Below are positions 2,171-54,192 of a stretch of 64,000 nucleotides of DNA, in pieces (position 1 is the first letter of the stretch; each line of letters begins with the position of its first letter). The translations under genes and the position numbers were made by a program. The DNA is from an uncultured Prevotellaceae bacterium (lineage in GTDB: Bacteria; Bacteroidota; Bacteroidia; Bacteroidales; Bacteroidaceae), in assembly GCA_900316685.1 (NCBI GenBank), contig ONDS01000014.1, positions 1-64,000 on the forward strand. Reading direction: 5' to 3'. The notes below the pieces were generated by a model that was not told the origin of the DNA, made no database searches, and saw only the letters and a program-made list of their open reading frames with translations.

Positions 2171-2944
2171 ATGGGAAAAATCATATCATTAGCCAACCAA
2201 AAAGGCGGGGTGGGAAAGACCACCACCACCATCAACCTGGCCGCCTCGCTGGCCACCCTCGAGAAAAAAGTGCTCGTGGTGGACGGCGACCCACAGGCCA
2301 ACGCATCGAGCGGCTTGGGTGTGGACATACAGGAGGTGGACAATAGCCTGTATGAATGCATCATCGACCATGTCGACGTTCACGATGCCATCTACACCAC
2401 CGATATCGAGTCGCTCGACATCATACCCAGCCACATCGACTTGGTAGGAGCGGAGATTGAGATGCTCAACCTGCCGGCACGCGAGAAAGTCATCAGCCGG
2501 ATGCTCCAGCCCATCAAGGACGACTACGACTATATCCTCATCGACTGTTCGCCGTCGCTCGGTCTCATCACCGTCAACGCCCTCACCGCCGCCGACTCGG
2601 TGATCATCCCCGTACAATGTGAGTATTTCGCCCTTGAGGGTATCAGCAAATTGCTCAACACCATCAAGATCATCAAGAGCAAGCTCAACCCGAAGCTGGA
2701 AATCGAGGGGTTCCTCCTCACCATGTACGACAGCCGTCTGCGGCTGGCCAACCAGATATACGATGAAGTGAAGCGCCATTTCCAGGAATTGGTGTTCAAG
2801 ACCGTCATCCAGCGTAATGTGAAACTGAGTGAGAGTCCCAGCCATGGTCTCCCCGTGATTCTCTACGATGCCGACTCCACAGGCAGCAAGAACCACTTAG
2901 CCTTGGCAAAGGAGATTATCAGTAAGGAAGTTAGGATGAAGTGA
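2171..2944 (+). CDS. parA: Chromosome partitioning ATPase ParA (Soj)
   Basis: A ParA/Soj family Walker ATPase of 257 residues. The deviant Walker A motif KGGVGKTT is at residues 11-18, the A' region VDGDPQANAS follows near 38, and the Walker B-like ILIDCSPSLG is near 123. ParA binds nucleoid DNA in its ATP form and is released by ParB bound at parS, which moves replicated origins apart. The length and lack of an N-terminal HTH fit a chromosomal ParA. parB follows after 85 nt of repeat-rich spacer. No convincing parS palindrome was seen in the window, so the origin is not located here. Confidence 0.95.
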   Translation: MGKIISLANQKGGVGKTTTTINLAASLATLEKKVLVVDGDPQANASSGLGVDIQEVDNSLYECIIDHVDVHDAIYTTDIESLDIIPSHIDLVGAEIEMLNLPAREKVISRMLQPIKDDYDYILIDCSPSLGLITVNALTAADSVIIPVQCEYFALEGISKLLNTIKIIKSKLNPKLEIEGFLLTMYDSRLRLANQIYDEVKRHFQELVFKTVIQRNVKLSESPSHGLPVILYDADSTGSKNHLALAKEIISKEVRMK

Positions 2945-3029
2945 GAGGTGAGAGGTGAGAGAATACCCCACTGACAATTTTTCTTAACTCTTAACTCTTA
3001 ATTCTTAACTCATAACACTCAACAAAAAT
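2945..3029 (+). repeat. Heptamer-repeat intercistronic module (parA-parB)
   Basis: GTGAGAG heptamers directly follow the parA stop. Next comes the linker AATACCCCACTGACAATTTT, then pyrimidine-rich heptamers TTAACTC/TTAATTC up to the parB start. The same three-part order recurs at 9999-10140 and, with a variant linker, at 8780-9011. Confidence 0.6.
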
Positions 3030-8779: not shown

Positions 8780-9011
8780 GAGGTGAGAAGTGAGGGGTGA
8801 GAAGTGAGAAGTGAGGGGTGAGGAGTGAGGGGTGAGAGAATAGTCCACAGCGGAGTAATGTCTAAACTCCTAAACTCCCAAACTCCTTAAATAAACAGAG
8901 TAATTTTCTTAACTCTTAATTCTTAATTCTTAACTCTTAATTCTTAACTCTTAACTCTTAACTCTTAATTTTTAACTCTCAACTAAGAAGTCTTAAAACA
9001 AACATAAAACG
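8780..9011 (+). repeat. Compound heptamer/octamer repeat spacer (rsh-pectinesterase)
   Basis: The 232-nt spacer holds no gene. It begins with about eight GTGAG(A/G)(A/G) heptamers and a linker GAGAGAATAGTCCACAG. It then has GGAGTAATGTC followed by three CTAAACTC-type octamers (8862-8892), and finally about eleven TTAACTC/TTAATTC heptamers before the next start. The TAATGTC boundary is shared with 19 and 48793, linking the heptamer and decamer repeat families. Confidence 0.65.
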
Positions 9012-9998
9012 ATGAAAGCATTACGGAGATTCGGCTTAGGGCTGATGAGCCTAATGGTGTTGTCAGCCCAGGCCGCCAATCCCTACGACAATCCCGACAC
9101 CATCGTGGTGGCCCGCGATGGCACGGGACAGTTCCGCAACATAGACGAGGCCATCGAGGTATGCCGTGCCTTCATGGACTACCATAAGGTCATCTATGTG
9201 AAAAAAGGTCATTACAAGGAGAAGCTGATCATCCCCTCGTGGCTCGACCACATCGAAATCGTGGGCGAAGATGTGAACAGCACCGTCATCACCTTCGACG
9301 ACCATGCCAACATCCGCAGGGAAGGAACAGAAAAGGGGATGGGCACCTTCCGCACCTACACGGTCAAGATAGAAGGCAATGACATCACGCTGAAGAACAT
9401 CACCGTGGAGAACAACTCCGCCCGTCTGGGACAAGCCGTCGCCCTGCATACCGAAGGCGACAGGCTACGGTTCATCGGATGCCGCTTCCTGGGCCATCAG
9501 GATACCATCTACACGGGCAAGGCCAACACCCGCCTGTATTTCCAGGACTGCTATATAGAAGGGACTACCGACTTCATCTTCGGTCCCTCCACCGCCTGGT
9601 TCGAGCGTTGTGAGATACACAGCAAGGCCAACTCCTACGTCACCGCCGCCTCCACACCCCAGGACATCGAATATGGTTACGTGTTCAACCGCTGCCGGCT
9701 GACCGCCGACGAGGGTATCGACAAGGTGTATTTAGGCAGGCCGTGGCGTCCCTACGCCTATACGCTCTTCATGAACTGCGAACTGGGCAAGCATATCGTA
9801 GGAGCAGGATGGCACAATTGGAACAATGCCGACAACGAGCGCACCGCCAGATACCTGGAGCACAACAACACGGGCGAGGGTGCCGCCACGGCACAACGGG
9901 TCCCCTGGAGCCGTCAACTCACGAAGAAAGAAGCCGAGAAGATCACCCCCGAAGCGGTGTTCAACACCACCCCACAGCGGTTTGTGTTGAAGGAGTGA
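9012..9998 (+). CDS. Secreted pectinesterase (CE8)
   Basis: A 328-residue pectin methylesterase that removes methyl groups from homogalacturonan and makes it accessible to lyases. A signal peptide (about residues 1-21, ending SAQA) precedes a single right-handed beta-helix domain. Family motifs are present: GHQDTIY, the catalytic TTDFIFG (D187), and LGRPW with the conserved arginine. GAGWHNWN lies near the C-terminus. It is a compact single-domain form, unlike the 1093-residue enzyme at 19737-23018. Neighbours (rsh, nadE) are housekeeping, so it is not in a recognisable polysaccharide utilisation locus. Confidence 0.93.
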   Translation: MKALRRFGLGLMSLMVLSAQAANPYDNPDTIVVARDGTGQFRNIDEAIEVCRAFMDYHKVIYVKKGHYKEKLIIPSWLDHIEIVGEDVNSTVITFDDHANIRREGTEKGMGTFRTYTVKIEGNDITLKNITVENNSARLGQAVALHTEGDRLRFIGCRFLGHQDTIYTGKANTRLYFQDCYIEGTTDFIFGPSTAWFERCEIHSKANSYVTAASTPQDIEYGYVFNRCRLTADEGIDKVYLGRPWRPYAYTLFMNCELGKHIVGAGWHNWNNADNERTARYLEHNNTGEGAATAQRVPWSRQLTKKEAEKITPEAVFNTTPQRFVLKE

Positions 9999-10140
9999 GA
10001 GGTGAGGGGTGAGAGGTGAGAGAATACCCCACAGACATTTTTTCGCAATTCATCACTCATCACTCAACACTCATCACTCAACACTCATCACTCATCACTC
10101 AACACTCATCACTCAACACTCAACACTCAACATTCAAAAT
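9999..10140 (+). repeat. Heptamer-repeat intercistronic module (pectinesterase-nadE)
   Basis: The stop codon is followed by GTGAGAG/GTGAGGG heptamers, then the linker AATACCCCACAGACATTTTT. About twelve ACTCATC/ACTCAAC heptamers end right before the nadE ATG. The linker is nearly identical to that at 2961-2980. Confidence 0.7.
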
Positions 10141-12678: not shown

Positions 12679-12769
12679 TGATCTATATGACACCCTCCCC
12701 GGCCCTCCCAAGGGAGGGAGATGGAAAAAAAGGTTAGGTCATTATTTGACAAACCACCCCGGCCCCTCC

Positions 12770-12957
12770 TTTGGAAAAGGAGGGGAGTGAAGATGCTTTG
12801 GAAAAGGAGGGGAGTGAAGATGCTTTGGAAAAGGAGAGGAGTGAGGATGCTTTGGAAAAGGAGGGGAGTGAGGATGCTTTGGAAAAGGAGGGGAGTGAAG
12901 ATGCTTTGGAAAAGGAGGGGAGTGAGGATGCTTTGGAAAAGGAGGGGAAAGCACTAA
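12770..12957 (+). repeat. 27-bp tandem repeat, seven copies
   Basis: Copies begin at 12770, 12797, 12824, 12851, 12878, 12905 and 12932. The unit is TTTGGAAAAGGAGGGG plus AGTG(A/G)(A/G)GATGC, the last copy truncated. The unit core CCTTTGGAAAAGG is hairpin-like with the preceding CCCCTCC. A related hairpin, CCCTCCCAAGGGAGGG, lies just upstream (12705-12720). The 27-bp length leaves several frames open on both strands, but the peptides look like translated repeat and are not called as genes. Confidence 0.9.
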
Positions 12958-37841: not shown

Positions 37842-37849
37842 CAAAGATA
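37842..37849 (-). promoter_or_regulatory. TAnnTTTG promoter box for the nitroreductase
   Basis: TATCTTTG on the minus strand, 30 nt upstream of the start. The second copy of the duplicated unit has TATCTTTA at the same position, so only this copy has the full box. Confidence 0.6.
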
Positions 37850-37988
37850 CGGAAAATCGAGAGGAGAATAAAATGAACCCTTTCATTTTTTATCCCGAGA
37901 TGGAGTATCTTATCTAAAGATACGGAAAATCGAGAGGAGAATAAAATGAACCCTTTCATTTTTTATCCCGAGATGGAGTATCTTATCT
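37843..37988 (-). repeat. 73-bp perfect tandem duplication in the nitroreductase leader/upstream region
   Basis: Two identical 73-bp copies (37843-37915 and 37916-37988), with the first 5-6 nt of a third. Each contains the hairpin AAAATGAA-CCCT-TTCATTTT. The copies are identical, so the duplication is recent. Confidence 0.95.
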
Positions 37989-38038
37989 AAAGATTGTTTT
38001 TTTCTCAGTCATTACAATAGATTACCAAACATTTGTAT

Positions 38039-43849: not shown

Positions 43850-45979
43850 ATGATTCGTATTCGCAAGATATCAGCCTTCTTTTTCATATCGGCATTTCTT
43901 TGGGGAATGGCGGCGAAGGCCTTGGCACAAGAAGTTGGTTCCAGCCATCGGTTGTCGCCCCATCTGGCCCTGCTCCTCCAGCAACCCGAGGGACGCCCCG
44001 ACAGCATCGACGTGCTCGTGCGGTTCGGCGATGCGGCGATGGGCGAAACGACCATACAACGCCATGGTTGCCGGCTGATGACATGGATAGGCCGGGTGGC
44101 GGTGGTACGCGGCACCCTTACCGACCTGACCGACATGGCCACCGACCATCAAGTGCTTCGGATGGAAGGCGAACCTTTCGGTCGGGCGCAGACCGATGTG
44201 AGCGGGCGGATCATTCATGCCACGGAGGTTCACAACGGCACATCGCTGCCTCGCGCCTTCACGGGCAAGGGGGTATGCTGCGCCATCCTCGACCATGGTC
44301 TCGACTTCACCCACCCGGCTTTCCATGATGAGGAAGGACGGCTACGCATCACCTATTTCCACGACTGCACAACCGGCGAGACCTACGAAGGGGCCGACCT
44401 CATCGCTGCTCAGCAAGGGTCGTCGACCATCGAGCGCTCCTACCACGGTTCACACGTATTGGGCATCATGGCAGGCTCACCCGTCGGCCCTTTCTGCGGC
44501 ATGGCTCCCGGGGCCACCATCCTCGCCGCCGATTTCGACGGCTACGCCCGCAACTTCGAAGGAGGGTCGGCGGCCACCATCCTTCTTGCCATGAAGCGGC
44601 TGTTCGACCATGCCGACGCCCTGGGCCAGCCCTGCGTGCTCAACTTCAGCAGCAGCGTGGGCTACCTCGCCGGCAGTCCACGCCCCCTCGAAGAAGAATG
44701 TCTGGCTGCGATGACCGGACCGGGACATATCATCGTGGCGGCAGCCTCGAACAGGGGAGCCAAACGCTGCTGTATGCACAAGCAAGAGGGACAGCCCCGA
44801 GCAGGAGCCATCATGAATAATGTGACCAGCAACTATAGCGGCATCGTGGAATGGGACCTCTACACCGACGGCGACATCGACATGACCATCGCACTGCTTG
44901 GCAGCGACCTCGCCACTGAAAAGCTGCGGTTGTCGGTAAGCACCAACGACATAGACCAAGCCGAAGGGCGGAGTTGGAGCCAAACAGCCACGTACAATGT
45001 CACCCATTTCACGCTCACTGGAACGGATATGGGCATGATGGGGACTAAGCGGTTGTACCATTTCGTCTTGACCCCCGACAGGGGGAGCCTGCGTACCATC
45101 ATCGCCCTGCATCTCGACGGACAGGCAGAAGCCACGGTCTTCACCAACGCCGACGTGAGCGATTTCCTCGACACGCCCACCCCCGAGGGTTATGCCGACG
45201 GCACCCTCGGCGGCACCATAGGATGGCCCGCCATCAGCCCATCGGTCATCGCCGTGGGTGCCACCGCCCACACGCTGGCTTTCACCAACCTAATGGGTGA
45301 GGAGCAAGACGAGAGCGGCGATGCGCCCAACGGTACGGGAAAAACTGCCATCTTCTCCGGGCGCGGCCCTTTGTATCCGGGCAGCCCAGTCAAACCCGAG
45401 TCATGCGCCCCAGGCACAGCCGTCAAGGCTCCACTCAATCACTTCTACCCCCTGACCGACAAGTTGCGCTCCCAGCTGGTGTGGCAGACCGACGACGAGA
45501 CGCCCTACTACTGGATGGCACAAAGTGGCACTTCGATGGCGGCTCCAATGGTGGCAGGCATCATCGCCCTGTGGTTGGAGGCGCAACCCGACCTATCGCC
45601 TGACGATGTGCGCGAACTGCTGGCCTTGTCGTGCACCCATCCCGACGACACCCTGCCCTACCCCAACGACCTCTACGGACATGGCGAAATCGACGCCCAC
45701 CGAGGCATACTCCACTTGCTGGGTCTCGACGGCATCGAGGACATCCCATGCCACCCCTTGCACGAGGGATGGCTGAAGAAGGAAGGCAAGCAACTGGTGC
45801 TGATACCGCAAGAAGGCTCCCCGGCGCTCTCTTTGCGTATTTACAATACACAAGGACAATTGGTTACTACGACGACTCTCACCACCGACTGCCCTGCCCT
45901 CGACCTCTCGGCATTTCCCTCCGGCATCTACGTGATAGCCACCCAACAAGGCAGCCTGATTCTAAACACCAAACCCTAA
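43850..45979 (+). CDS. Secreted S8 family serine peptidase (subtilase)
   Basis: A 709-residue subtilisin-like protease. After the signal peptide (about residues 1-27, ending ALAQ) and a short prodomain comes the triad: D148 (AILDHGLDFTHP), H202 (GSHVLGIMAG) and S562 (SGTSMAAPMVAG). A long insert between H and S is typical of Bacteroidota subtilases. The C-terminus (LRIYNTQGQLV ... FPSGIYVIATQQG) resembles a T9SS type A sorting domain, indicating surface or secreted location. Confidence 0.92.
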   Translation: MIRIRKISAFFFISAFLWGMAAKALAQEVGSSHRLSPHLALLLQQPEGRPDSIDVLVRFGDAAMGETTIQRHGCRLMTWIGRVAVVRGTLTDLTDMATDHQVLRMEGEPFGRAQTDVSGRIIHATEVHNGTSLPRAFTGKGVCCAILDHGLDFTHPAFHDEEGRLRITYFHDCTTGETYEGADLIAAQQGSSTIERSYHGSHVLGIMAGSPVGPFCGMAPGATILAADFDGYARNFEGGSAATILLAMKRLFDHADALGQPCVLNFSSSVGYLAGSPRPLEEECLAAMTGPGHIIVAAASNRGAKRCCMHKQEGQPRAGAIMNNVTSNYSGIVEWDLYTDGDIDMTIALLGSDLATEKLRLSVSTNDIDQAEGRSWSQTATYNVTHFTLTGTDMGMMGTKRLYHFVLTPDRGSLRTIIALHLDGQAEATVFTNADVSDFLDTPTPEGYADGTLGGTIGWPAISPSVIAVGATAHTLAFTNLMGEEQDESGDAPNGTGKTAIFSGRGPLYPGSPVKPESCAPGTAVKAPLNHFYPLTDKLRSQLVWQTDDETPYYWMAQSGTSMAAPMVAGIIALWLEAQPDLSPDDVRELLALSCTHPDDTLPYPNDLYGHGEIDAHRGILHLLGLDGIEDIPCHPLHEGWLKKEGKQLVLIPQEGSPALSLRIYNTQGQLVTTTTLTTDCPALDLSAFPSGIYVIATQQGSLILNTKP

Positions 45980-46250
45980 ACACTCTTCCTTAACCCTTCA
46001 AAACAACGAATCTAACGAATTACACGAATTCTCACAGAACACTAAACACTCTACACTAAACATTCTACACTCAACACTCTACACTAAACACTAAACACTC
46101 AACACTCAACATTCTACACTCAACACTCTACACTCAACACTAAACATTCAACACTATACACTAAACCCTAAACACTCAACACTAAACATTCAACACTCAA
46201 CACTAAACACTCTACACTAAACACTAAACATTCTACACTCAACACTCAAC
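45980..46250 (+). repeat. Long heptamer tract upstream of etfB, with the 45-bp module
   Basis: The tract contains the ACAACGAAT...ACTAAAC module (46003-46047), then some 28 heptamers ACTAAAC, ACTCTAC, ATTCTAC and ACTCAAC up to about 46250. With the promoter region it makes a 480-nt gene-free stretch. Confidence 0.85.
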
Positions 46251-46342
46251 CATTTCTTGCACAAAAAGGGGGAAATGTGCACAAAAAGAGTATAAATGTG
46301 CATTTTTAATTACAAATCCTTTGTCACACGCTGAAAAATGAG

Positions 46343-46350
46343 TACTTTTG
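46343..46350 (+). promoter_or_regulatory. TAnnTTTG promoter box for the etf operon
   Basis: TACTTTTG, about 112 nt before the etfB start. Two GCACAAAAAG direct repeats lie just upstream (46258-46288). Confidence 0.55.
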
Positions 46351-46462
46351 CAGCCGAAAACTGCAAAGGGCTTGTTGTGCTTGCCCTCGACAGTTGGAAG
46401 AGAACAAGCCACAAGCTACATTTGGATGTTTTTGGAATAACCATTTTTTATCAAAAAATAAT

Positions 46463-47335
46463 ATGAGTTTGAAAATTGTTGTACTTGCCAAGCAAGTACC
46501 TGACACACGCAACGTGGGCAAGGACGCCATGACTGCCGAAGGCACCGTCAACCGCGCCGCCCTGCCCGCCATCTTCAATCCTGAAGACCTGAATGCCCTG
46601 GAGCAAGCCCTCCGTCTGAAGGAGCAGCATCCTGGTTCCACCGTAGGCATCCTCACGATGGGTCCTCCACGTGCCGGTGAAATCATCCGCCAAGGTCTCT
46701 ATCGTGGAGCCGACACCGGTTGGCTCTTGACCGACCGTCTGTTCGCAGGAGCCGACACGTTGGCCACTTCTTACGCCTTAGCCACCGCCATCAAGAAGAT
46801 TGGCGATGTGGACATTGTGATCGGTGGTCGTCAGGCCATCGATGGCGACACCGCCCAAGTGGGTCCGCAGGTAGCCCAGAAACTGGGTCTGAACCAAGTG
46901 ACCTACGCAGAGGAAATCCTGAAGATTGAAGACGGCAAAGCCACCATCCGCCGCCATATCGACGGTGGTGTGGAGACGGTGGAAGCCCCGCTGCCCGTGG
47001 TCATCACCGTCAACGGCAGCGCCGCACCCTGTCGTCCCTGCAATGCCAAACTGGTGATGAAATACAAGCGTGCCACCTGTCCGATGGAACGCCCTGCTGA
47101 GGGAACGTCATACGATTACCTCTATGAGGAGCGTCCCTACCTGACCCTGAACCAGTGGTCAGTGGCCGATGTCGACGGCGATGCCAACCAATGCGGTCTG
47201 GCCGGTTCGCCCACCAAGGTGAAAGCAGTGAAGAACATCGTGTTCCAGGCTAAGGAGTCGAAGACTTTGACGGCTTCCGATGCCGATGTCGAGAGTATGA
47301 TCAAAGAATTGTTGGAAGAAAAGATTATAGGATAA
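46463..47335 (+). CDS. etfB: Electron transfer flavoprotein subunit beta
   Basis: A 290-residue EtfB (MSLKIVVLAKQVPDTR, NPEDLNALEQALRL, GRQAIDGDTAQVGPQ, PCRPCNAKLVMKYKRA). With EtfA it forms the FAD/AMP heterodimer that accepts electrons from acyl-CoA dehydrogenase. The start at 46463 matches the conserved N-terminus; codons upstream translate the leader. etfA starts 4 nt after the stop. Confidence 0.94.
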   Translation: MSLKIVVLAKQVPDTRNVGKDAMTAEGTVNRAALPAIFNPEDLNALEQALRLKEQHPGSTVGILTMGPPRAGEIIRQGLYRGADTGWLLTDRLFAGADTLATSYALATAIKKIGDVDIVIGGRQAIDGDTAQVGPQVAQKLGLNQVTYAEEILKIEDGKATIRRHIDGGVETVEAPLPVVITVNGSAAPCRPCNAKLVMKYKRATCPMERPAEGTSYDYLYEERPYLTLNQWSVADVDGDANQCGLAGSPTKVKAVKNIVFQAKESKTLTASDADVESMIKELLEEKIIG

Positions 47336-47339
47336 AGCC

Positions 47340-48365
47340 ATGCAGAACGTTTTTGTATATGTAGAAATAGAAGGCACCCAGGTACAGGAAGTATCTCAGG
47401 AGCTGCTGACCAAGGGTCGCAAGCTGGCCAATGAACTGAACGTTGAACTGCATGCCGTGGTCATCGGCACCGACATCAAGGGCAAGGTGGAAGACCAGAT
47501 ACTTCCCTACGGCGTAGACAAGTTGTTCGTCTTCGACGGAGAGGGACTGTTCCCCTACACCTCAGCACCCCACACCGACATCCTCGTCAACCTGTTCAAG
47601 GAGGAGGAACCGCAGATTTGTCTGATGGGCGCCACCGTCATCGGTCGCGACCTCGGTCCCCGCGTCTCCTCGTCGCTGACCAGCGGTCTGACCGCCGACT
47701 GCACGCAGTTGGAGATTGGCGAGTATGACGAGAAGAAGACAGGCAAGCACTATGACAACCTGCTCTATCAGATCCGTCCCGCCTTCGGTGGCAACATCGT
47801 GGCCACCATCGTCAATCCCGACCATCGTCCACAGATGGCCACCGTGCGCTCGGGCGTGATGCAAAAAGCCATCTACGAGGGCGACTGCCGCAAAGAAGTG
47901 GTCTATCCCGACGTGGCTAAATATGTGGATATGGCTGTGGCTGGCGTCGTCAAGGTGCTCGACCACCATGTGGAAGCCGCCAAGCACAACCTCAAGGGTG
48001 CTCCCATCGTGGTGGCGGGAGGTTACGGCATGGGCTCGAAAGAAGGTTTCGACATGCTCTTCGACCTGGCCAAGGTGCTCCACGGCGAGGTGGGTGGCTC
48101 ACGTGCCGCCGTCGATGCTGGTTTCTGCGACCATGACCGTCAGATTGGTCAGACAGGTGTGACCGTCCATCCCAAGGTGTATATCGCCTGTGGTATCTCC
48201 GGTCAGATCCAGCACATCGCCGGTATGCAGGACTCTGGTATCATCATCTCTGTGAACTCCGATCCCGAGGCTCCCATCAACAAGATTGCCGACTACGTGA
48301 TTGTGGGCACGGTGGAGGAAGTTGTTCCGAAACTGATTAAGTATTATAAGCAGAATAGTAAATAA
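47340..48365 (+). CDS. etfA: Electron transfer flavoprotein subunit alpha
   Basis: A 341-residue EtfA. The C-terminal FAD domain has GGSRAAVDAGFCDHDRQIGQ, VYIACGISGQIQH, and SVNSDPEAPINKIADYVIVG. It pairs with EtfB upstream. Between it and its partner dehydrogenase lies the four-helix-bundle element, so the operon is interrupted. Confidence 0.95.
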   Translation: MQNVFVYVEIEGTQVQEVSQELLTKGRKLANELNVELHAVVIGTDIKGKVEDQILPYGVDKLFVFDGEGLFPYTSAPHTDILVNLFKEEEPQICLMGATVIGRDLGPRVSSSLTSGLTADCTQLEIGEYDEKKTGKHYDNLLYQIRPAFGGNIVATIVNPDHRPQMATVRSGVMQKAIYEGDCRKEVVYPDVAKYVDMAVAGVVKVLDHHVEAAKHNLKGAPIVVAGGYGMGSKEGFDMLFDLAKVLHGEVGGSRAAVDAGFCDHDRQIGQTGVTVHPKVYIACGISGQIQHIAGMQDSGIIISVNSDPEAPINKIADYVIVGTVEEVVPKLIKYYKQNSK

Positions 48366-48370
48366 TTACA

Positions 48371-48839
48371 GGAGATAGAAGAAGTTAGGAGAAGTTAGAA
48401 GAAGATAAAGGACAAATGCTATGACGCGGACATTTGAAGAAGTTGGAGCCTGGCAAAAATCCCATGAGTTTGTACTGATGGTATATAATGCCACAAAGTC
48501 ATTCCCTGACTTTGAAAGGTTCGGACTTTGTTCTCAATTTCAACGTGCCGCAGTATCCATAGCAGCAAATATCGCTGAAGGTTATAAAAAAATAAGCAAG
48601 GCAGATAAACTTCGCTTTTTCAACATTTCGCAAGGTAGTATGGAAGAATGCAGATACTATTGCATTCTCTCCAAAGATCTTGGTTATATCGACGAAATGA
48701 CATTTTCCCAATTACAAAATGCATTGAACTCTGCAAGTTATATGTTGAACGCATATATTAACAGCATTGTCGATAATAAAGGAATAACTGACTAATGTCC
48801 TTTATCTTCCTTTACCTTCTTTTACCTTCCTTTAACTCC
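48371..48839 (+). mobile_element. IVS-like element: 44-bp inverted repeat enclosing a four-helix-bundle gene
   Basis: The left arm is 48371-48414 and the right arm 48796-48839. They are 44 nt each, aligned without gaps: 35 Watson-Crick plus 4 G-U pairs. The inner 14 bp are perfect (GAAGATAAAGGACA with its complement). Each arm is four in-register 10-nt units plus four bases. The enclosed gene starts 6 nt after the left arm and its stop TAA touches the right arm. S23/IVP genes in 23S rRNA intervening sequences sit in the same kind of long stem. Mobility is inference. Confidence 0.6.
48421..48795 (+). CDS. Four-helix-bundle protein (23S rRNA intervening-sequence protein family)
   Basis: A 124-residue protein of the S23/IVP family (TIGR02436 type). 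Its motifs are EEVGAWQKSHEFVLMVYNAT, QFQRAAVSIAANIAEGYKK and SQGSMEECRYYCILSKDLGYI. Family members are pentameric helical bundles, encoded in 23S rRNA intervening sequences, next to diversity-generating retroelements (Avd), or as solo genes. Function here is unknown. The gene is more AT-rich than etfA and acd, and sits within the inverted-repeat element. Confidence 0.9.
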   Translation: MTRTFEEVGAWQKSHEFVLMVYNATKSFPDFERFGLCSQFQRAAVSIAANIAEGYKKISKADKLRFFNISQGSMEECRYYCILSKDLGYIDEMTFSQLQNALNSASYMLNAYINSIVDNKGITD

Positions 48840-48857
48840 ATATAAAAGAACAAACCA

Positions 48858-50597
48858 ATGGCAAACTATTATAGCGATCATCCTGAGATCGGGTTCTACT
48901 TGAACCACCCCCTGATGAAAAGAATTGTCGAGCTGAAGGAAAAAGGCTTCGTCGACAAAGACCAATATGCCGATGCACCCGTTGACTTCGACGATGCCAT
49001 CGAGAACTACAAACAAATTTTGGAAATCACGGGCGACGTGGCCGCCAACATCATCGAGCCCAACTCGGAGAGTGTCGACCTGGAAGGTCCGCACCTCGAG
49101 AACGGACGCATGATCTACGCCTCGAAGACTTTCGAGAACCTCGATGCCACCCGCAAGGCGGGTCTGCATGGTGTGAGTATGCCTCGCCGTTACGGCGGTC
49201 TGAACCTGCCCAATGCCGTCTTCTCGATGCTGAGCGAGGTGATAGCCGCCGCAGATGCCGGATTCCAGAACATCTGGAGTCTTCAGAGCTGTATCGACAC
49301 GCTCTATGAGTTCGGAAGCGAGGAACAGCGCGAGAAATACATCCCTCGCGTGTGCGCTGGCGAGACCATGTCGATGGACCTCACCGAACCCGATGCCGGT
49401 AGCGACCTGCAACGCGTGATGCTCAAGGCCACCTACGACGAGAAAGAGGATTGCTGGCGCCTGAACGGCGTGAAGCGCTTCATCACCAATGGCGACTCTG
49501 ACATCCACCTTGTGCTCGCCCGTTCGGAGGAAGGCACGAAAGACGGCCGTGGCCTGTCGATGTTCATCTACGACAAGCGTCAGGGCGGTGTCAACGTGCG
49601 CCACATCGAGCACAAGCTCGGCATCCACGGTTCACCTACCTGCGAGTTGACCTACAAGAACGCCAAGGCTGAACTTTGCGGAAGCACCCGCATGGGTCTC
49701 ATCAAATATGTGATGGCACTGATGAACGGCGCCCGCCTCGGGATCGCCGCGCAGAGTGTGGGTGTGGAGCAGGAAGCCTACAACGAAGGACTGAAATACG
49801 CCAAGGAGCGTCAGCAGTTCGGTCAGAAGATCATCGAGTTCCCCGCTGTCTACGACATGCTCGCCCGTATGAAAGCCAAGTTGGACGCCGGTCGTTCGCT
49901 GCTCTACCAGACTGCCTGCCATGTAGACATCTACAAGGCCCTGGAGGATATCCAGCGCGACCGCAAGCTTGAGGCCGAGGAGCGTCAGGAACTGAAGAAA
50001 TACCAGCGTCTGGCCGATGCCTTCACACCTCTGGCCAAGGGTATGAACTCCGAATATGCCAACCAGAACGCCTACGATGCCATCAGCATCCACGGCGGTT
50101 CGGGCTTCATCATGGAGTATAAGAGCCAACGACTGTTCCGCGATGCCCGTATCTTCTCCATCTACGAAGGTACGACGCAGTTGCAGGTGGTGGCCGCCAT
50201 CCGCTACATCACCAACGGTACCTATCTCGGCATCATGAAAGAGATGCTCGAGCAGGAGGTGAGCGCCGACATGCTTCCCCTCAAGAAGCGTATTGAGGGC
50301 ATGGTGGCCCAGTATGAGGCAGCCCTCAACTATGTGAAGGAAGCCCAGAACCAGGAGATGCAGGACTTCCTGGCCCGCCGTCTGTACGACATGACGGGCG
50401 ACATCATCATGTCGCTGCTCATCATCGGCGATGCCAGCAAAGCCCCCGAGCTTTTCGGCAAGAGCGCCCAGGTGTATGTGCGCATGGCCGAGGAAGACGT
50501 GATGGGCAAGGCCATCTACGTGCGCCACTTCACTCCCGAGGAGTTGCCCAGTTTCCGTGCCAAGGAAGAAGAGGCAGAGGAAGCGGCCGAGGCATGA
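48858..50597 (+). CDS. Acyl-CoA dehydrogenase (long form)
   Basis: A 579-residue flavin enzyme, longer than the about 380-residue mitochondrial type because of a C-terminal extension. Motifs: SMDLTEPDAGSDLQRVMLKA (substrate/FAD loop), NDAISIHGGSGF-like (AYDAISIHGGSGFIMEYKSQ), and RIFSIYEGTTQLQ. It oxidises an acyl-CoA to the enoyl-CoA and passes electrons to EtfAB, encoded just upstream. Its Glu/Ala-rich tail (EEAEEAAEA) overlaps the MGMT gene by an ATGA. Confidence 0.92.
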   Translation: MANYYSDHPEIGFYLNHPLMKRIVELKEKGFVDKDQYADAPVDFDDAIENYKQILEITGDVAANIIEPNSESVDLEGPHLENGRMIYASKTFENLDATRKAGLHGVSMPRRYGGLNLPNAVFSMLSEVIAAADAGFQNIWSLQSCIDTLYEFGSEEQREKYIPRVCAGETMSMDLTEPDAGSDLQRVMLKATYDEKEDCWRLNGVKRFITNGDSDIHLVLARSEEGTKDGRGLSMFIYDKRQGGVNVRHIEHKLGIHGSPTCELTYKNAKAELCGSTRMGLIKYVMALMNGARLGIAAQSVGVEQEAYNEGLKYAKERQQFGQKIIEFPAVYDMLARMKAKLDAGRSLLYQTACHVDIYKALEDIQRDRKLEAEERQELKKYQRLADAFTPLAKGMNSEYANQNAYDAISIHGGSGFIMEYKSQRLFRDARIFSIYEGTTQLQVVAAIRYITNGTYLGIMKEMLEQEVSADMLPLKKRIEGMVAQYEAALNYVKEAQNQEMQDFLARRLYDMTGDIIMSLLIIGDASKAPELFGKSAQVYVRMAEEDVMGKAIYVRHFTPEELPSFRAKEEEAEEAAEA

Positions 50598-50935
50598 GAG
50601 ACTATCCCAGCCACATGACGCCACAGCAGGCACGCGCCTTTGGTGAGGACGTGCTCAGCGTGGTGGCCCAGATACCGAGCGGCAGTGTGACCACCTATGG
50701 TCACATTGCCGCTCTCATTGGTTGGCCCAGCCATGCCCGCTTGGTGGGTCGCACCCTACGTTACACCCCCGGCGCCGAACGGGTTCCCTGTCACCGTGTG
50801 GTCAACGCCGTGGGTCGCACCGCCCCCGGTTGGTCGGCCCAGCGTGAGATGCTCGAGCGCGAAGGTGTCACGTTCAAGGCCAACGGCCATGTCGACATGA
50901 CCCGCCACCTGTGGGAACCGGAAATTGAATGTTGA
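50594..50935 (+). CDS. MGMT family DNA-binding domain protein (alkyltransferase-like)
   Basis: A 113-residue protein containing only the C-terminal DNA-binding domain of O6-alkylguanine-DNA alkyltransferase. The active-site PCHRVV is kept (C66), so it could transfer alkyl groups, unlike Atl proteins in which Cys is replaced. RYTPGAERVPCHRV and the arginine finger region (HARLVGRTL) are present. Translation is coupled to acyl-CoA dehydrogenase (ATGA overlap at 50594-50597). Why a DNA repair gene is joined to that operon is unclear. Confidence 0.88.
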   Translation: MRDYPSHMTPQQARAFGEDVLSVVAQIPSGSVTTYGHIAALIGWPSHARLVGRTLRYTPGAERVPCHRVVNAVGRTAPGWSAQREMLEREGVTFKANGHVDMTRHLWEPEIEC

Positions 50936-51054
50936 GTGTTGAGTGTTGAGTGTTGAATGGTCGTTTCGCGATGATTCAATGTGAGCCTGTAGGGGCTTAC
51001 TTTATGTATGCCCAAAAACACAAGGCCGCACGGGCAAGACAAGCATGCCCCTAC
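50936..51054 (+). repeat. Purine heptamers plus GTAGGGGC-terminated palindrome
   Basis: GTTGAGT/GTTGAAT heptamers follow the MGMT stop (50936-50957). After 30 nt comes a segment bounded by GTAGGGGC (50989-50996) and GCCCCTAC (51047-51054). The same GTAGGGGC terminus marks REP-like sequences at 57854 and 60790. Confidence 0.6.
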
Positions 51055-51072
51055 GTTGAAGTGTTGTTTCTT

Positions 51073-52071
51073 TCAGGAAGAGACCGTGGCGATGAGTTTC
51101 TCCACTAACCGCGGAACGGCATATCGATCGAGGTCGGTCTCCTCCACCCAGAAATAATCGTCGGGCAGAGAAGGGAAGTCGTCTGCCTCCGCTAAGTAAA
51201 AATCAGCCATGATGATGCGGTGCGTGAGCACATGCTTCACCCCACCACGCAAGAATCTGAGCCGGACATTATCACCCTCCGGTATGAAGGTCAGCGGTTC
51301 ATACAGTCCCTGCCAGATGTCGCCCGCGCCCCTCCGCCGCAGCACCGTCTTTCCCTGGCAGCGCAAATAGACGTACACCATCCGCCGCTCCTTCACCTTC
51401 AGCCTCTTCTCTTTCACTGGCAGCACCTCCACCTTATTATTATGTAATGCCTCGCAGCGGTCGGCCAAAGGACAGTCGGTGCAATGAGGCGCGGTGGGTG
51501 TACACACCACCGACCCGAAATCCATCATCGCCTGGTTGAAGTCGTGTGGCCGTTCTGTGGGCAGGAGCGATTGCGCCAGTTGGGTGAATTCCTTTTTCCC
51601 ACGAGTGGTATTGATGGGCGTGGAGATGCCAAAGACACGCGCCAGCACGCGATAGGCATTGCCGTCGACCGCCGCCACGGGCAGATGGAAGGCGAACGAG
51701 GCGATGGCCGCCGCCGTATAGTCGCCCACCCCCTTCAGTCGTTTGATCTCATCGTAGGTGTCGGGAAAACGGCCCAGCGCCACTATCTGGCGCGCCGCGT
51801 GGTGCAGGTTGCGCGCCCGCGAATAATAACCCAGCCCCTGCCACATTTTGAGCACCTCGTCCTCCGAGGCCTCGGCCAACGACTGCACATCCGGGAAACG
51901 GTTTATGAACCTGTGCCAGTAGTCTATGCCTTGCGCCACGCGCGTCTGCTGGAGGATCACCTCGCTCAGCCAGATATGATACGCATTGCGCGAACCACGC
52001 CACGGCAGTTCGCGCCCATGCTGTTCAAACCACAACAGCAGTCGTATGGTGAAAGGGTCAAGCCTCGGCAT
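51073..52071 (-). CDS. mutY: A/G-specific adenine glycosylase MutY
   Basis: A 332-residue base excision repair glycosylase removing A opposite 8-oxoG. The catalytic Glu is in LSEVILQQTRV, the HhH-GPD hairpin is LKGVGDYTAAAIASFAF, the catalytic Asp is in AAVDGNAYRV, and the 4Fe-4S ligands are in CTPTAPHCTDCPLADRC. The C-terminal NUDIX-like domain (VYLRCQGKTVLRRRG) recognises 8-oxoG. The first 14 nt overlap the TerB-like gene. Confidence 0.94.
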   Translation of the reverse strand: MPRLDPFTIRLLLWFEQHGRELPWRGSRNAYHIWLSEVILQQTRVAQGIDYWHRFINRFPDVQSLAEASEDEVLKMWQGLGYYSRARNLHHAARQIVALGRFPDTYDEIKRLKGVGDYTAAAIASFAFHLPVAAVDGNAYRVLARVFGISTPINTTRGKKEFTQLAQSLLPTERPHDFNQAMMDFGSVVCTPTAPHCTDCPLADRCEALHNNKVEVLPVKEKRLKVKERRMVYVYLRCQGKTVLRRRGAGDIWQGLYEPLTFIPEGDNVRLRFLRGGVKHVLTHRIIMADFYLAEADDFPSLPDDYFWVEETDLDRYAVPRLVEKLIATVSS

Positions 52072-52558
52072 CGATACGTTGCAGGATGGTCACGTCGAAA
52101 TTAGGCAGGTTGATGTTCTTGAAATAGGAGTTGAAGAGCGCGAGGTAGTCACGTTTCACGTCTTTATCCGTGAAATGATGGGTAATGCCCTTGATTTCCC
52201 TCTTCAACACCTCGTCGTCGAAGGCCGGCAGGTTCTCACGTATGATCTTGAAGAAACGTATCTCGAAATAGTCCACCCTCTCGTCGGCCAGTTCCACATC
52301 CACGGCCACTTGCAGGATATCCAGTGCCTGCCGCTCATCTATCTGGCTGTTGCGTAGCGTCATGATATAATCGCGCAGGAAGCGCACGCCCCGTTGGTTG
52401 ATCTCAGCCACCCACTGGTTCAGGCACGCCTCCACGTCGAGCGAGGCAAAACGGTCATTGTGGGCGGCATAGGCACGTATGCGGTCCACCTCGGGTTGTA
52501 CTATCTCGCCGTCGCAAGCCATGCAGGCGAAAGCGGTTTTCAGGAGTAGTTCTTGCAT
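52058..52558 (-). CDS. TerB-like helical protein
   Basis: A 166-residue all-helical protein resembling TerB/DjlA-type domains (LLKTAFACMACDGEIVQPEVDRI near the N-terminus; ALDILQVAVDVELADERVDYFE in the middle). TerB-like domains bind metal through acidic residues. It precedes mutY with a 14-nt overlap, suggesting coupled expression. Function is unknown. Confidence 0.75.
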   Translation of the reverse strand: MQELLLKTAFACMACDGEIVQPEVDRIRAYAAHNDRFASLDVEACLNQWVAEINQRGVRFLRDYIMTLRNSQIDERQALDILQVAVDVELADERVDYFEIRFFKIIRENLPAFDDEVLKREIKGITHHFTDKDVKRDYLALFNSYFKNINLPNFDVTILQRIDAEA

Positions 52559-52589
52559 ACTCTTAATTTTGAATGTTGAGTGTTGAGGG
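52559..52589 (-). repeat. Heptamer tract before the TerB-like start
   Basis: On the minus strand CCCTCAA, CACTCAA, CATTCAA units end right before the ATG, consistent with pyrimidine-rich heptamers preceding starts. Confidence 0.6.
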
Positions 52590-53498
52590 TTATTGGCAAG
52601 CGAATTTGAAGATGAGGAAGATGGCGATGACGATGGCCCAGCCCAGGAGGTGATACTCCCAGCGGAAGCGTATCTTACCCCCTTGGTCGGTGTTGTTCAT
52701 GATCTGATTGAACACCGATGCCAGCCGGTTGCGGTTTTCAGAATATCGCCCAGCCTTGTATTCGGGCAACATGGCCATCACGTCGAGCTTCCTGAACAGG
52801 TTCATCGACACCATGATGGTATGTTTGATACGCGCCAGTCCCTCCTGCGTATCGGTATGCAGCAGCCGCTCGTTCACATCGTCGACGATGGTGCCGAGCA
52901 CGCTGTCCACCACCTTGGTCGACATCGCCAGGTAATAATGGTCGTCCGCCGCCGTGGCTTCCCTTATCTTGTCTAAAAGAGGCAAAGCCTTGCCCAGCGT
53001 CTGCTCGGCATAGCTCACCTCGTCGGGCAGCGCCGTGGCATCGATGAGGCATTGGCGCAGCAGGCCGTCCGTCTCCTTGAGTGCCAGGGGTGGCCGTTCC
53101 ACCTGCATTTGCCGTACCACACTGATATTGTCGTCGCACCGTTCCTCGGTGAACCGTGTCTGCGCTATCTCACGCGCATACTCCATCAGCGGCATGGCCT
53201 TCTGTGCCGCACTGTCGTCATCGGTGCCGTTCACATAGTCGATGGCGCACTGCAGTATCTCCTCCGCCATGTTCTCCGCCACCTGCCGATAGCGAGGGTC
53301 GTCAGCCCCCATCGCCGTGAGCATCTGTGCCAGGAAGGCCTTCGCCTCGTTGGCCAGTCGTTTGCCCGCCCCCCATCGCTCATCGGCGAAATGTCCGCGC
53401 GTTGCGCGCGCCTTCTCCAGGGCCTGCCCTGCCTGTTGTTGAAGAGCCGCCGTCTGCGTGCCCGTCATGTTATTGTTGTCGTCCATAGGTTCATCCAT
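52590..53498 (-). CDS. Tail-anchored coiled-coil protein of unknown function
   Basis: A 302-residue helical protein with a C-terminal membrane segment (LLGWAIVIAIFLIFKFACQ), so it is probably tail-anchored in the inner membrane. The body is helical with many Gln/Ala/Glu residues (LQQQAGQALEKARATRGHF; VDSVLGTIVDDVNERLL). I do not recognise a family. The start at 53498 (MDEPMDDNNN) is 13 nt after a -7 box; upstream codons overlap the promoter. It is followed by the TerB-like gene and mutY. Confidence 0.7.
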   Translation of the reverse strand: MDEPMDDNNNMTGTQTAALQQQAGQALEKARATRGHFADERWGAGKRLANEAKAFLAQMLTAMGADDPRYRQVAENMAEEILQCAIDYVNGTDDDSAAQKAMPLMEYAREIAQTRFTEERCDDNISVVRQMQVERPPLALKETDGLLRQCLIDATALPDEVSYAEQTLGKALPLLDKIREATAADDHYYLAMSTKVVDSVLGTIVDDVNERLLHTDTQEGLARIKHTIMVSMNLFRKLDVMAMLPEYKAGRYSENRNRLASVFNQIMNNTDQGGKIRFRWEYHLLGWAIVIAIFLIFKFACQ

Positions 53499-53511
53499 TT
53501 GCTTTACGATG

Positions 53512-53519
53512 CAAATATA
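53512..53519 (-). promoter_or_regulatory. TAnnTTTG promoter box for the 52590-53498 gene
   Basis: TATATTTG on the minus strand, 13 nt upstream of the chosen start. Confidence 0.55.
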
Positions 53520-53631
53520 CGAAAAAAAGGATAGGAACATCCACAAGCTCCTTTAGGCTCCGCAATGTGGCATAGCCGCCATCTCTTGCTGAGCACCTGT
53601 ATCAACTGCTGCTCCTGCGTCATCATCTTCC

Positions 53632-53874
53632 TCAGGCTACTTTCAGCAAGTCGAGTACGGAGTACACCCGTGTCATGTTCTCAAACGTAAAATACTGGTC
53701 ATCGAGCACCATCCACTTCTCTCGCTCCTTCACAGGCATCTGCTGGATGTCAGGAAAGAAACTTAAGGGTATCAGCACCTCGCGACCGTCGGTCAGACGC
53801 ACCAGCATCTTGCCGCGACGATACCTGAAGTTCAAGTCCCTTATACCAACGTTGACGTCTTTCATCTTACACAT
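53632..53874 (-). CDS. DUF2442 domain-containing protein
   Basis: An 80-residue DUF2442 protein (VRLTDGREVLIPLSFFPDIQ ... WMVLDDQYFTFE, though the usual WEE motif is replaced). It lies 21 nt after the DUF4160-like gene on the same strand. DUF2442 and DUF4160 proteins are often encoded together and are suspected toxin-antitoxin-like pairs. Confidence 0.85.
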   Translation of the reverse strand: MCKMKDVNVGIRDLNFRYRRGKMLVRLTDGREVLIPLSFFPDIQQMPVKEREKWMVLDDQYFTFENMTRVYSVLDLLKVA

Positions 53875-53895
53875 ATCTCGTCGACCTCCTACTTT

Positions 53896-54192
53896 TTATT
53901 TTTCTATATTGATTGAAACTGTCTTTTCTCCTTTGAATGCTTTGGTCACCTGTTCATTGATGGCCTCCCAGTGACGATTAATGGCGGCCACTATCATCTC
54001 GTTGTCTTTAGCGGATAGTTCCGACTCTGCTATTTCCACACACTGCTGTCCATTGCGCTCAATCCAGATCTTTGCCAGAGAATGCTGATGACGTTTGCCC
54101 TTGCGAAACACATGCACATGGCGACGATTATCATTCGCATCTATCGAGATAGCGACCAAAATAAACATCTGCAAGAAAGCCAATTGTCCCAT
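53896..54192 (-). CDS. DUF4160-like protein
   Basis: A 98-residue protein with SIDANDNRRHVHVFRKG, comparable to the PHFHA-type core of DUF4160, followed by a helical C-half (EMIVAAINRHWEAINEQV). It forms a tight pair with the DUF2442 gene. Promoter box at 54217. The divergent N-terminus means the family assignment is moderate. Confidence 0.7.
   Translation of the reverse strand: MGQLAFLQMFILVAISIDANDNRRHVHVFRKGKRHQHSLAKIWIERNGQQCVEIAESELSAKDNEMIVAAINRHWEAINEQVTKAFKGEKTVSINIEK

Follow-up and report, generated by a model that had tools for sequence, protein, structure and literature searches.

Proteins of the IVP/S23 family take their label from where they occur in 23S rRNA. What, then, is a gene of this family doing between two partner genes of a metabolic operon, framed by two long complementary repeats? 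The question is raised by a locus in a 64,000-nt stretch of DNA from an uncultured Prevotellaceae bacterium (GenBank assembly GCA_900316685.1, contig ONDS01000014.1, positions 1 to 64,000 of the forward strand), here called the window. A sequence-only reading had described the locus as an element resembling the intervening sequences (IVSs) of 23S rRNA. We argue that it is probably one copy of a mobile-type cassette, in which the IVP/S23 gene would be carried between inverted arrays of short units, these arrays being the ends of the cassette.

The locus

The cassette (48371..48839, plus strand) lies between an etfA-like gene (47340..48365) and an acd-like gene (48858..50597), both from the list of open reading frames. 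The three genes follow one another on the plus strand, and this strand and spacing suggest that they are co-transcribed; the earlier placing of the element inside an operon is supported. These match electron-transfer-flavoprotein alpha-type NCBIfam models and acyl-CoA dehydrogenase-type models, respectively, in both cases under the curated equivalog cut-offs. The gene between them (48421..48795, plus strand, 124 aa) encodes a four-helix-bundle protein matching TIGR02436 with 122.3 bits (cut-off 24) and PF05635 with 125.3 bits (cut-off 33.8); solved relatives are 2GSC and 2RLD. Searches of this gene against Pfam and NCBIfam returned IVP/bAvd and hypothetical-protein families only, with no known transposase or recombinase; the PF22296 (bAvd) match has an E-value of 2.8e-5 and is below the curated cut-off.

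Two arms enclose the gene: a left arm (48371..48414), purine-rich on the sense strand, and a right arm (48796..48839) that is its inverted complement, both on the plus strand and both built from 10-nt tandem units in register. Together they form an ungapped inverted repeat of 44 nt with 381 nt in between, of whose 44 positions 35 form Watson-Crick pairs, four are G-U and two are A-C. Six nucleotides separate the left arm from the ATG at 48421, and the right arm starts directly after the stop codon, which ends at 48795. Scored for pairing with gaps and G-U allowed, the locus reaches 57. No dinucleotide shuffle did so among 5000 of the 300-nt flanks (maximum 36) or among another 5000 of the 80-nt flanks only (maximum 46.5). 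The repeat stands as it was first described. As RNA, positions 48363-48860 fold with an energy of -146.8 kcal/mol (z = -8.6, 100 shuffles). This long stem, the terminal inverted repeats and an S23p ORF in sense make up the IVS-like anatomy that had been recognised at the outset.

An exact search with a Bacteroidota-type promoter motif gave no match in the etfA-acd spacer, the nearest plus-strand match lying at 46320-46350, upstream of etfB, and a scan for sigma-70-type promoters gave no more matches than in shuffles. Between 47300 and 49300 no terminator-like site was found 3' of the right arm other than a single one, at 48875, which falls inside acd. No Rfam model matched 44000-54000 above its gathering score, so the cassette does not lie inside an rRNA gene.

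Inverted arms as a family trait

Of 60 sampled genomes of the window's genus, 52 have TIGR02436, as do 223 of 296 sampled across its phylum. The genus set comprised 95 IVP genes with flanks, the window's genome included; 60 of these stretches were taken roughly by E-value among the matches listed, and several matches were passed over (contig edge, internal stop, or no recorded reason). One locus at a contig edge (L016) was dropped, leaving 94. Flanks were called complementary at a pairing score of at least 30, which was reached by 89 of the 94 IVP genes versus 12 of 261 control genes, these being ordinary genes drawn from 20 stretches of 20 kb each. Among size-matched controls (100-180 aa) the count was one of 49, and when left and right flanks of different genus loci were paired with each other, 8.4% passed. 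The median scores were 54.25 for IVP loci, 22.5 for control genes and 21.5 for cross pairings. The sequence-only reading had proposed to look for inverted repeats at other TIGR02436 genes, and such arms indeed flank them too.

The five genus loci under the threshold are L072, L077, L093, L104 and L122. Of the 12 passing controls, five were inspected. Four of these have scores of 60 or more (L135 and L144 with one each, L142 with two), and their repeats suggest that they are host genes flanked by distinct arrays that carry no gene themselves. One ordinary gene in L142 (2312-2992), which by eye encodes a secreted hydrolase, is flanked by inverted repeats about 87 nt long.

Beyond the genus, 18 of 30 IVP genes pass in the phylum sample versus 6.6% of cross pairings; genes above 220 aa or with less than 150 nt of flank were excluded here and from the analysis of other cargo. 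Among named loci of several phyla, 68 of 79 pass, at least two of them being also in the genus set; one of the original 80 was dropped as short (L324), and two with wrongly called starts (L288, L289) were counted as misses. By group, 37 of 42 Bacteroidota, seven of nine Patescibacteria and 12 of 15 loci from 'other phyla' pass, with cross pairing of 15-22%. Eight of nine Desulfobacterota-like loci and four of four from Bacillota pass as well, with cross pairing of 79% and 58%, respectively; since nearly one and the same unit recurs at all these loci, they say nothing about locus specificity and add little.

Many arms in the family have a short period. Across the genus set the mean best-lag identity is 0.67 versus 0.45 in shuffles, and by the lag test only 38 of 89 loci have clearly periodic arms, mostly with periods of 7, 8, 14 or 16 nt. 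In-register tandem units had been considered unlike transposon ends; since such arms are common around these genes, they do not speak against element ends. By eye, a small hairpin-like stretch sits at a similar position in both arms of L098, L084, L107, L073 and L082, its sequence differing between the arms as if the structure were kept.

Preferred places in the host genome

Gene strands, called from the longest ORFs, reveal a strong preference for sense placement. Both neighbours are co-directional at 84 of 94 IVP loci versus 145 of 270 control genes, and the upstream neighbour is so at 92 of 93 determinable loci versus 195 of 270. Where the arms are clear and the neighbour is co-directional, the median distance between the upstream stop and the beginning of the left arm is 0 nt (IQR -8 to +6, n=87), and a median of 8.5 nt separates the end of the right arm from the start of the following gene (n=82). 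The stop-to-start gap between neighbouring genes is typically taken up by the cassette. Examples are found at pta/ackA and sdhA/sdhB-type pairs, upstream of recA and after kduI. Another operon-like place is that of a four helix bundle gene in Flavobacterium columnare, which the consulted text of PMC5524665 places between the genes for guanylate kinase and nicotinate-nucleotide adenylyltransferase. A cassette with no promoter of its own would depend on the host operon for its expression, which would account for the bias towards sense placement.

The window's genome holds three full-length copies, which come after etfA-like, 2-oxoacid oxidoreductase beta-type and NADH:quinone oxidoreductase-type genes; at the latter two (L002, L003) the ORF called next downstream runs on the opposite strand. 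It also has three weaker TIGR02436 matches (L004, L005, L006). L004 lies in a 312-aa frame just at the PF05635 cut-off, with 9-nt arrays in direct orientation around it, and L005 is surrounded by inverted 8-nt arrays. In other genomes, several IVP genes lie close together on single contigs (L111 on G041:C42 and L086 on G044:C7), the second of these contigs carrying two IVP genes followed by a GxxExxY gene. Five contigs listed in a catalogue as viral (L266-L270) code for IVP relatives, too.

Arm units and their protein

The sequence of the arms follows that of the protein. Left-arm similarity, measured by shared 5-mers, correlates with protein identity (Mantel r 0.39, n=89; maximum of 2000 permutations 0.07), and in tree order the units differ by subfamily, for example GGAGTTA, GGTGAGA, AGTTGAC and TTTAGTCG. 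For protein identities of 0.45-0.65, the left-right match within a locus (mean 47-51) exceeds the similarity of the same arm between loci (21-36). The within-locus advantage is small at 0.65-0.70 (53.9 vs 48.7) and the order reverses above 0.70, because many such pairs represent the same site with similar flanks. This co-variation is what suggests that the IVP protein binds its arms, and in our model it would recognise its own repeat unit in both of them.

What is it, then, that selection maintains? The IVP protein is under strong purifying selection here, with dN/dS of at most 0.10 in the 14 pairs tried, dS being not estimable in seven of them. Synonymous differences in IVP pairs amount to 0.43-0.94, which is near saturation. 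In 12 pairs, with shifts of up to 4 nt allowed, mean identity is 70% for left arms and 74% for right arms, ranging from 0.33 to 1.00. One pair whose flanks are not shared (L034/L069) is among both the 14 and the 12.

These arms might be retained for their RNA. The locus would then be a strict mRNA intervening sequence, its stem kept by selection and the cassette excised by RNase III, separating etfBA from acd. The sense placement of the gene, the strong predicted stem and the anatomy shared with the 23S IVS of Coxiella (PMC4990558) agree with this idea, which we nevertheless regard as unlikely in view of how the arms change. If RNA pairing were under selection, G-U should exceed A-C on the sense strand, but across 90 loci there is no such excess (139 G-U versus 171 A-C), and the ratio within loci equals that in cross-locus pairings (0.81 versus 0.80). 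An excess of G-U over A-C is likewise missing from the phylum IVP set (28 vs 37), GxxExxY (38 vs 39) and DUF559 (17 vs 27). In 15 same-site pairs, 801 paired positions are unchanged and 166 carry single changes, against four double changes that keep pairing and seven that do not, with both directions counted, so that the numbers are not independent. They were obtained by subtracting two pairs with unshared flanks (L034/L069, L118/L106) from all 17, for which the counts are 916 unchanged, 186 single, eight double changes keeping pairing and eight not. With neither an excess of G-U nor one of compensatory changes, selection on an RNA stem is not supported and was dropped as the reason for the arms. 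Long stems may tolerate single mismatches, so that cutting stays plausible beside such counts.

As we see it, the units are conserved in both arms with no sign of pair-by-pair selection in these counts. Recognition of the units in double-stranded form by the cassette's own protein would explain this, and also the matching of arm and protein. Under the cassette reading, the transcript could still fold into a long stem, and by analogy with 23S rRNA IVSs its cutting by RNase III is plausible, even probable. Falling between two cistrons, the cut would be nearly harmless, a consequence of the arms and not what selection preserves.

Occupied and empty sites

The etfA-acd spacer itself offers a natural comparison. 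Across the genus, 57 genomes were compared (31, plus 26 with the acd closest in DNA), leaving out two loci without etfA (L044 and one other) and three repeats. Eight spacers hold an IVP gene (the window's own, G027, G045, G058, G046, G004, G007 and G451), which in G004 has an in-frame stop. Two are gutted, consisting of arms and the gene's tail only (G019, G658), five hold other cargo (three DUF559 and two GxxExxY; L249 and L265 judged by eye) and two appear by eye to be gene-less hairpins. The remaining spacers comprise 14 of 2-14 nt, two of 32 and 35 nt and 24 others, many with small ORFs. Near-empty sites, which the sequence-only reading had suggested looking for in relatives, are thus present, and the idea that the cassette is an element gains support. 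The nearest of them (L246) belongs to G477, whose acd protein is 96% identical to that of the window; its spacer has 14 nt in place of the full cassette and is A-rich, too short and simple to reveal a target-site duplication. By eye, a small ORF beginning with MKALDYFL or a like sequence occurs in the etfA-acd spacers of many relatives (L241, L242, L244, L257, L258 and L263 among them).

A single clade for the eight copies at this spacer was rejected with a p-AU of 0.011, which speaks against vertical inheritance alone, yet the rejection is lost without G045 (p-AU 0.08). The 25 rows of this test were chosen after the tree had been seen, and the site label was assigned from position. Rejection of one clade implies at least two arrivals of the cassette at the etfA-acd spacer, which we consider likely, not proved.

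Protein identity is 0.70 or higher in 24 IVP pairs. Of these, 16 have flanking DNA in common (in one case examined on the downstream side only) and eight have essentially none. L081 and both copies in L086 come from different genomes, are 0.88-0.89 identical in protein and have unshared flanks. The flanks are also unshared between the two L086 copies, 0.84 identical and about 1.6 kb apart on one contig, and between L107 and L125, 0.75 identical and from the same genome. For L081/L086 and within L086, DNA similarity spans gene and arms and not the flanks, as expected if gene plus arms were the moving unit. The same site is the commonest case among close pairs, and movement would therefore be rare or old. 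We envisage a cassette that would move rarely and be inherited vertically between moves; its own protein matches no known recombinase.

The frequency of shared sites (16/24) might instead point to a domesticated regulatory or insulating module, whose protein would bind the repeats in its own operon and adjust expression or stability of the downstream partner. Low dN/dS would fit, as would the position between partner genes such as those of the pta-ackA and sdhA-sdhB types, and arms that remain 70% and 74% identical at a near-fixed distance from the gene though synonymous sites are near saturation. We judge such a role very unlikely, since the 14 genomes with a spacer of 2-14 nt and the five with other cargo evidently dispense with the module, and the IVP family adjoins unrelated genes. 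Pairing of purine-rich with pyrimidine-rich repeats by composition alone is scarcely credible: left arms are purine-rich (median 0.65, 89 loci) and some cross-locus pairings pass the threshold, but the composition-keeping shuffles, the control genes and the size-matched controls rule it out.

Other cargo in the same niche

The cassette architecture is shared by genes of other families. After the size and flank filter, 29 of 30 GxxExxY and 14 of 30 DUF559 loci from the window's genus were kept. Complementary flanks were found at 26 of 29 GxxExxY genes, with cross pairing of 8.5%, and at 13 of 14 DUF559 genes, where cross pairing is high (48%) because the arms are alike. Both neighbours are in sense at 21 of 29 and 14 of 14 loci, respectively. 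Clearly periodic arms are present at four of 26 GxxExxY loci and at none of 13 DUF559 loci, whose arms are by eye CCCCTCC-like and largely palindromic.

Relation to known systems

The closest counterpart is the 23S rRNA IVS. In Coxiella burnetii, as the consulted text of PMC4990558 has it, this consists of a sense S23p ORF with terminal inverted repeats, is excised by RNase III and contains heptameric repeats in its 5' region, ahead of the ORF; the solved structure of an S23p relative is given there as a homopentamer. The same text cites older ideas of IVSs as mobile and calls their function and origin still unclear after 25 years (PMC4990558). Cassette and IVS have in common the protein family, the sense ORF, stem-forming terminal inverted repeats, short tandem repeats on the 5' side and a sporadic presence. 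In contrast to the rRNA insertions, the cassette lies between two protein-coding genes and both its arms are tandem arrays. Its gene is under strong purifying selection, whereas reductive evolution is reported for Coxiella, and RNase III excision, a feature of the Coxiella IVS (PMC4990558), is no more than plausible for the cassette.

IVP, a domain named in PMC10910872, has been found in inserts of both 16S and 23S rRNA in CPR bacteria, where most annotated ORFs of rRNA inserts are homing endonucleases, according to the consulted text of PMC11270868. Avd is said in PMC10053308 to resemble PF05635. The bAvd/Avd proteins of diversity-generating retroelements (PF22296) are distant homologs of the window's IVP protein with a different context, the neighbours in the window being etfA-like and acd-like. 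Among 38 IVP loci outside Bacteroidota, the 20 searched for rRNA gave no match.

Transposons and MITEs have terminal inverted repeats. The cassette resembles them in its inverted ends around a gene and its gutted copies, and differs from them in that its gene matches no known transposase and its array-ends change their unit by subfamily. Closer in texture are the intergenic arrays of the TAACTGA heptamer in Beggiatoaceae, Cyanobacteria and some Bacteroidetes (PMC4679880), likewise short in period, intergenic and near gene starts; these are direct repeats with one inverted exception, whereas the cassette arms are inverted. The consulted main text of that report (PMC4679880) makes no mention of 23S, four helix or intervening sequence, and our searches of openly licensed PubMed Central papers brought up no description of IVP operon cassettes.

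The repeat-gene-repeat unit recurs in intergenic positions of other operons and in other bacteria, and has the look of a mobile element of a kind that has drawn little notice. Were operon cassettes a main habitat of the family, they would provide many natural comparisons of full, gutted and empty sites and of matched and mismatched arms, which could show what the IVP protein binds and how the elements move. Core-metabolism operons of Prevotella and relatives may thus carry a passenger able to alter transcript processing between partners. A bolder proposal, in our view quite unlikely, would be a class of mobile elements that is spread across the bacteria, intercistronic and devoid of any known recombinase. 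Their inverted-array ends would have co-evolved with a pentameric protein that is not itself catalytic, and they would settle almost exclusively in sense, between co-transcribed genes. Such settling would suggest movement via the transcript, by integration at the RNA level and copying back. If this were true, 23S rRNA IVSs would be just one habitat, and the DUF559 and GxxExxY nuclease cassettes parallel classes in the same niche.

Gene-less arrays and other repeats

An inverted-repeat scan of 464 kb gave 72 matches and, at its threshold, missed the window's cassette; most matches are ordinary hairpins, so no count of gene-less cassettes can be drawn from it. In the window, 7-nt units form arrays that have no IVP gene with them at 2941-3016, 8783-8984, 9995-10137, 46038-46250 and 50925-50959. 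The first three contain GTGAGAGAATA followed by a CC-containing stretch and resemble left arms such as that of L023; the gene-less arrays may be remnants. Two further repeats in the window are a perfect 73-nt tandem duplication at 37843-37994 and, at 12769-12948, 6.7 copies of a 27-nt repeat with 96% identity.
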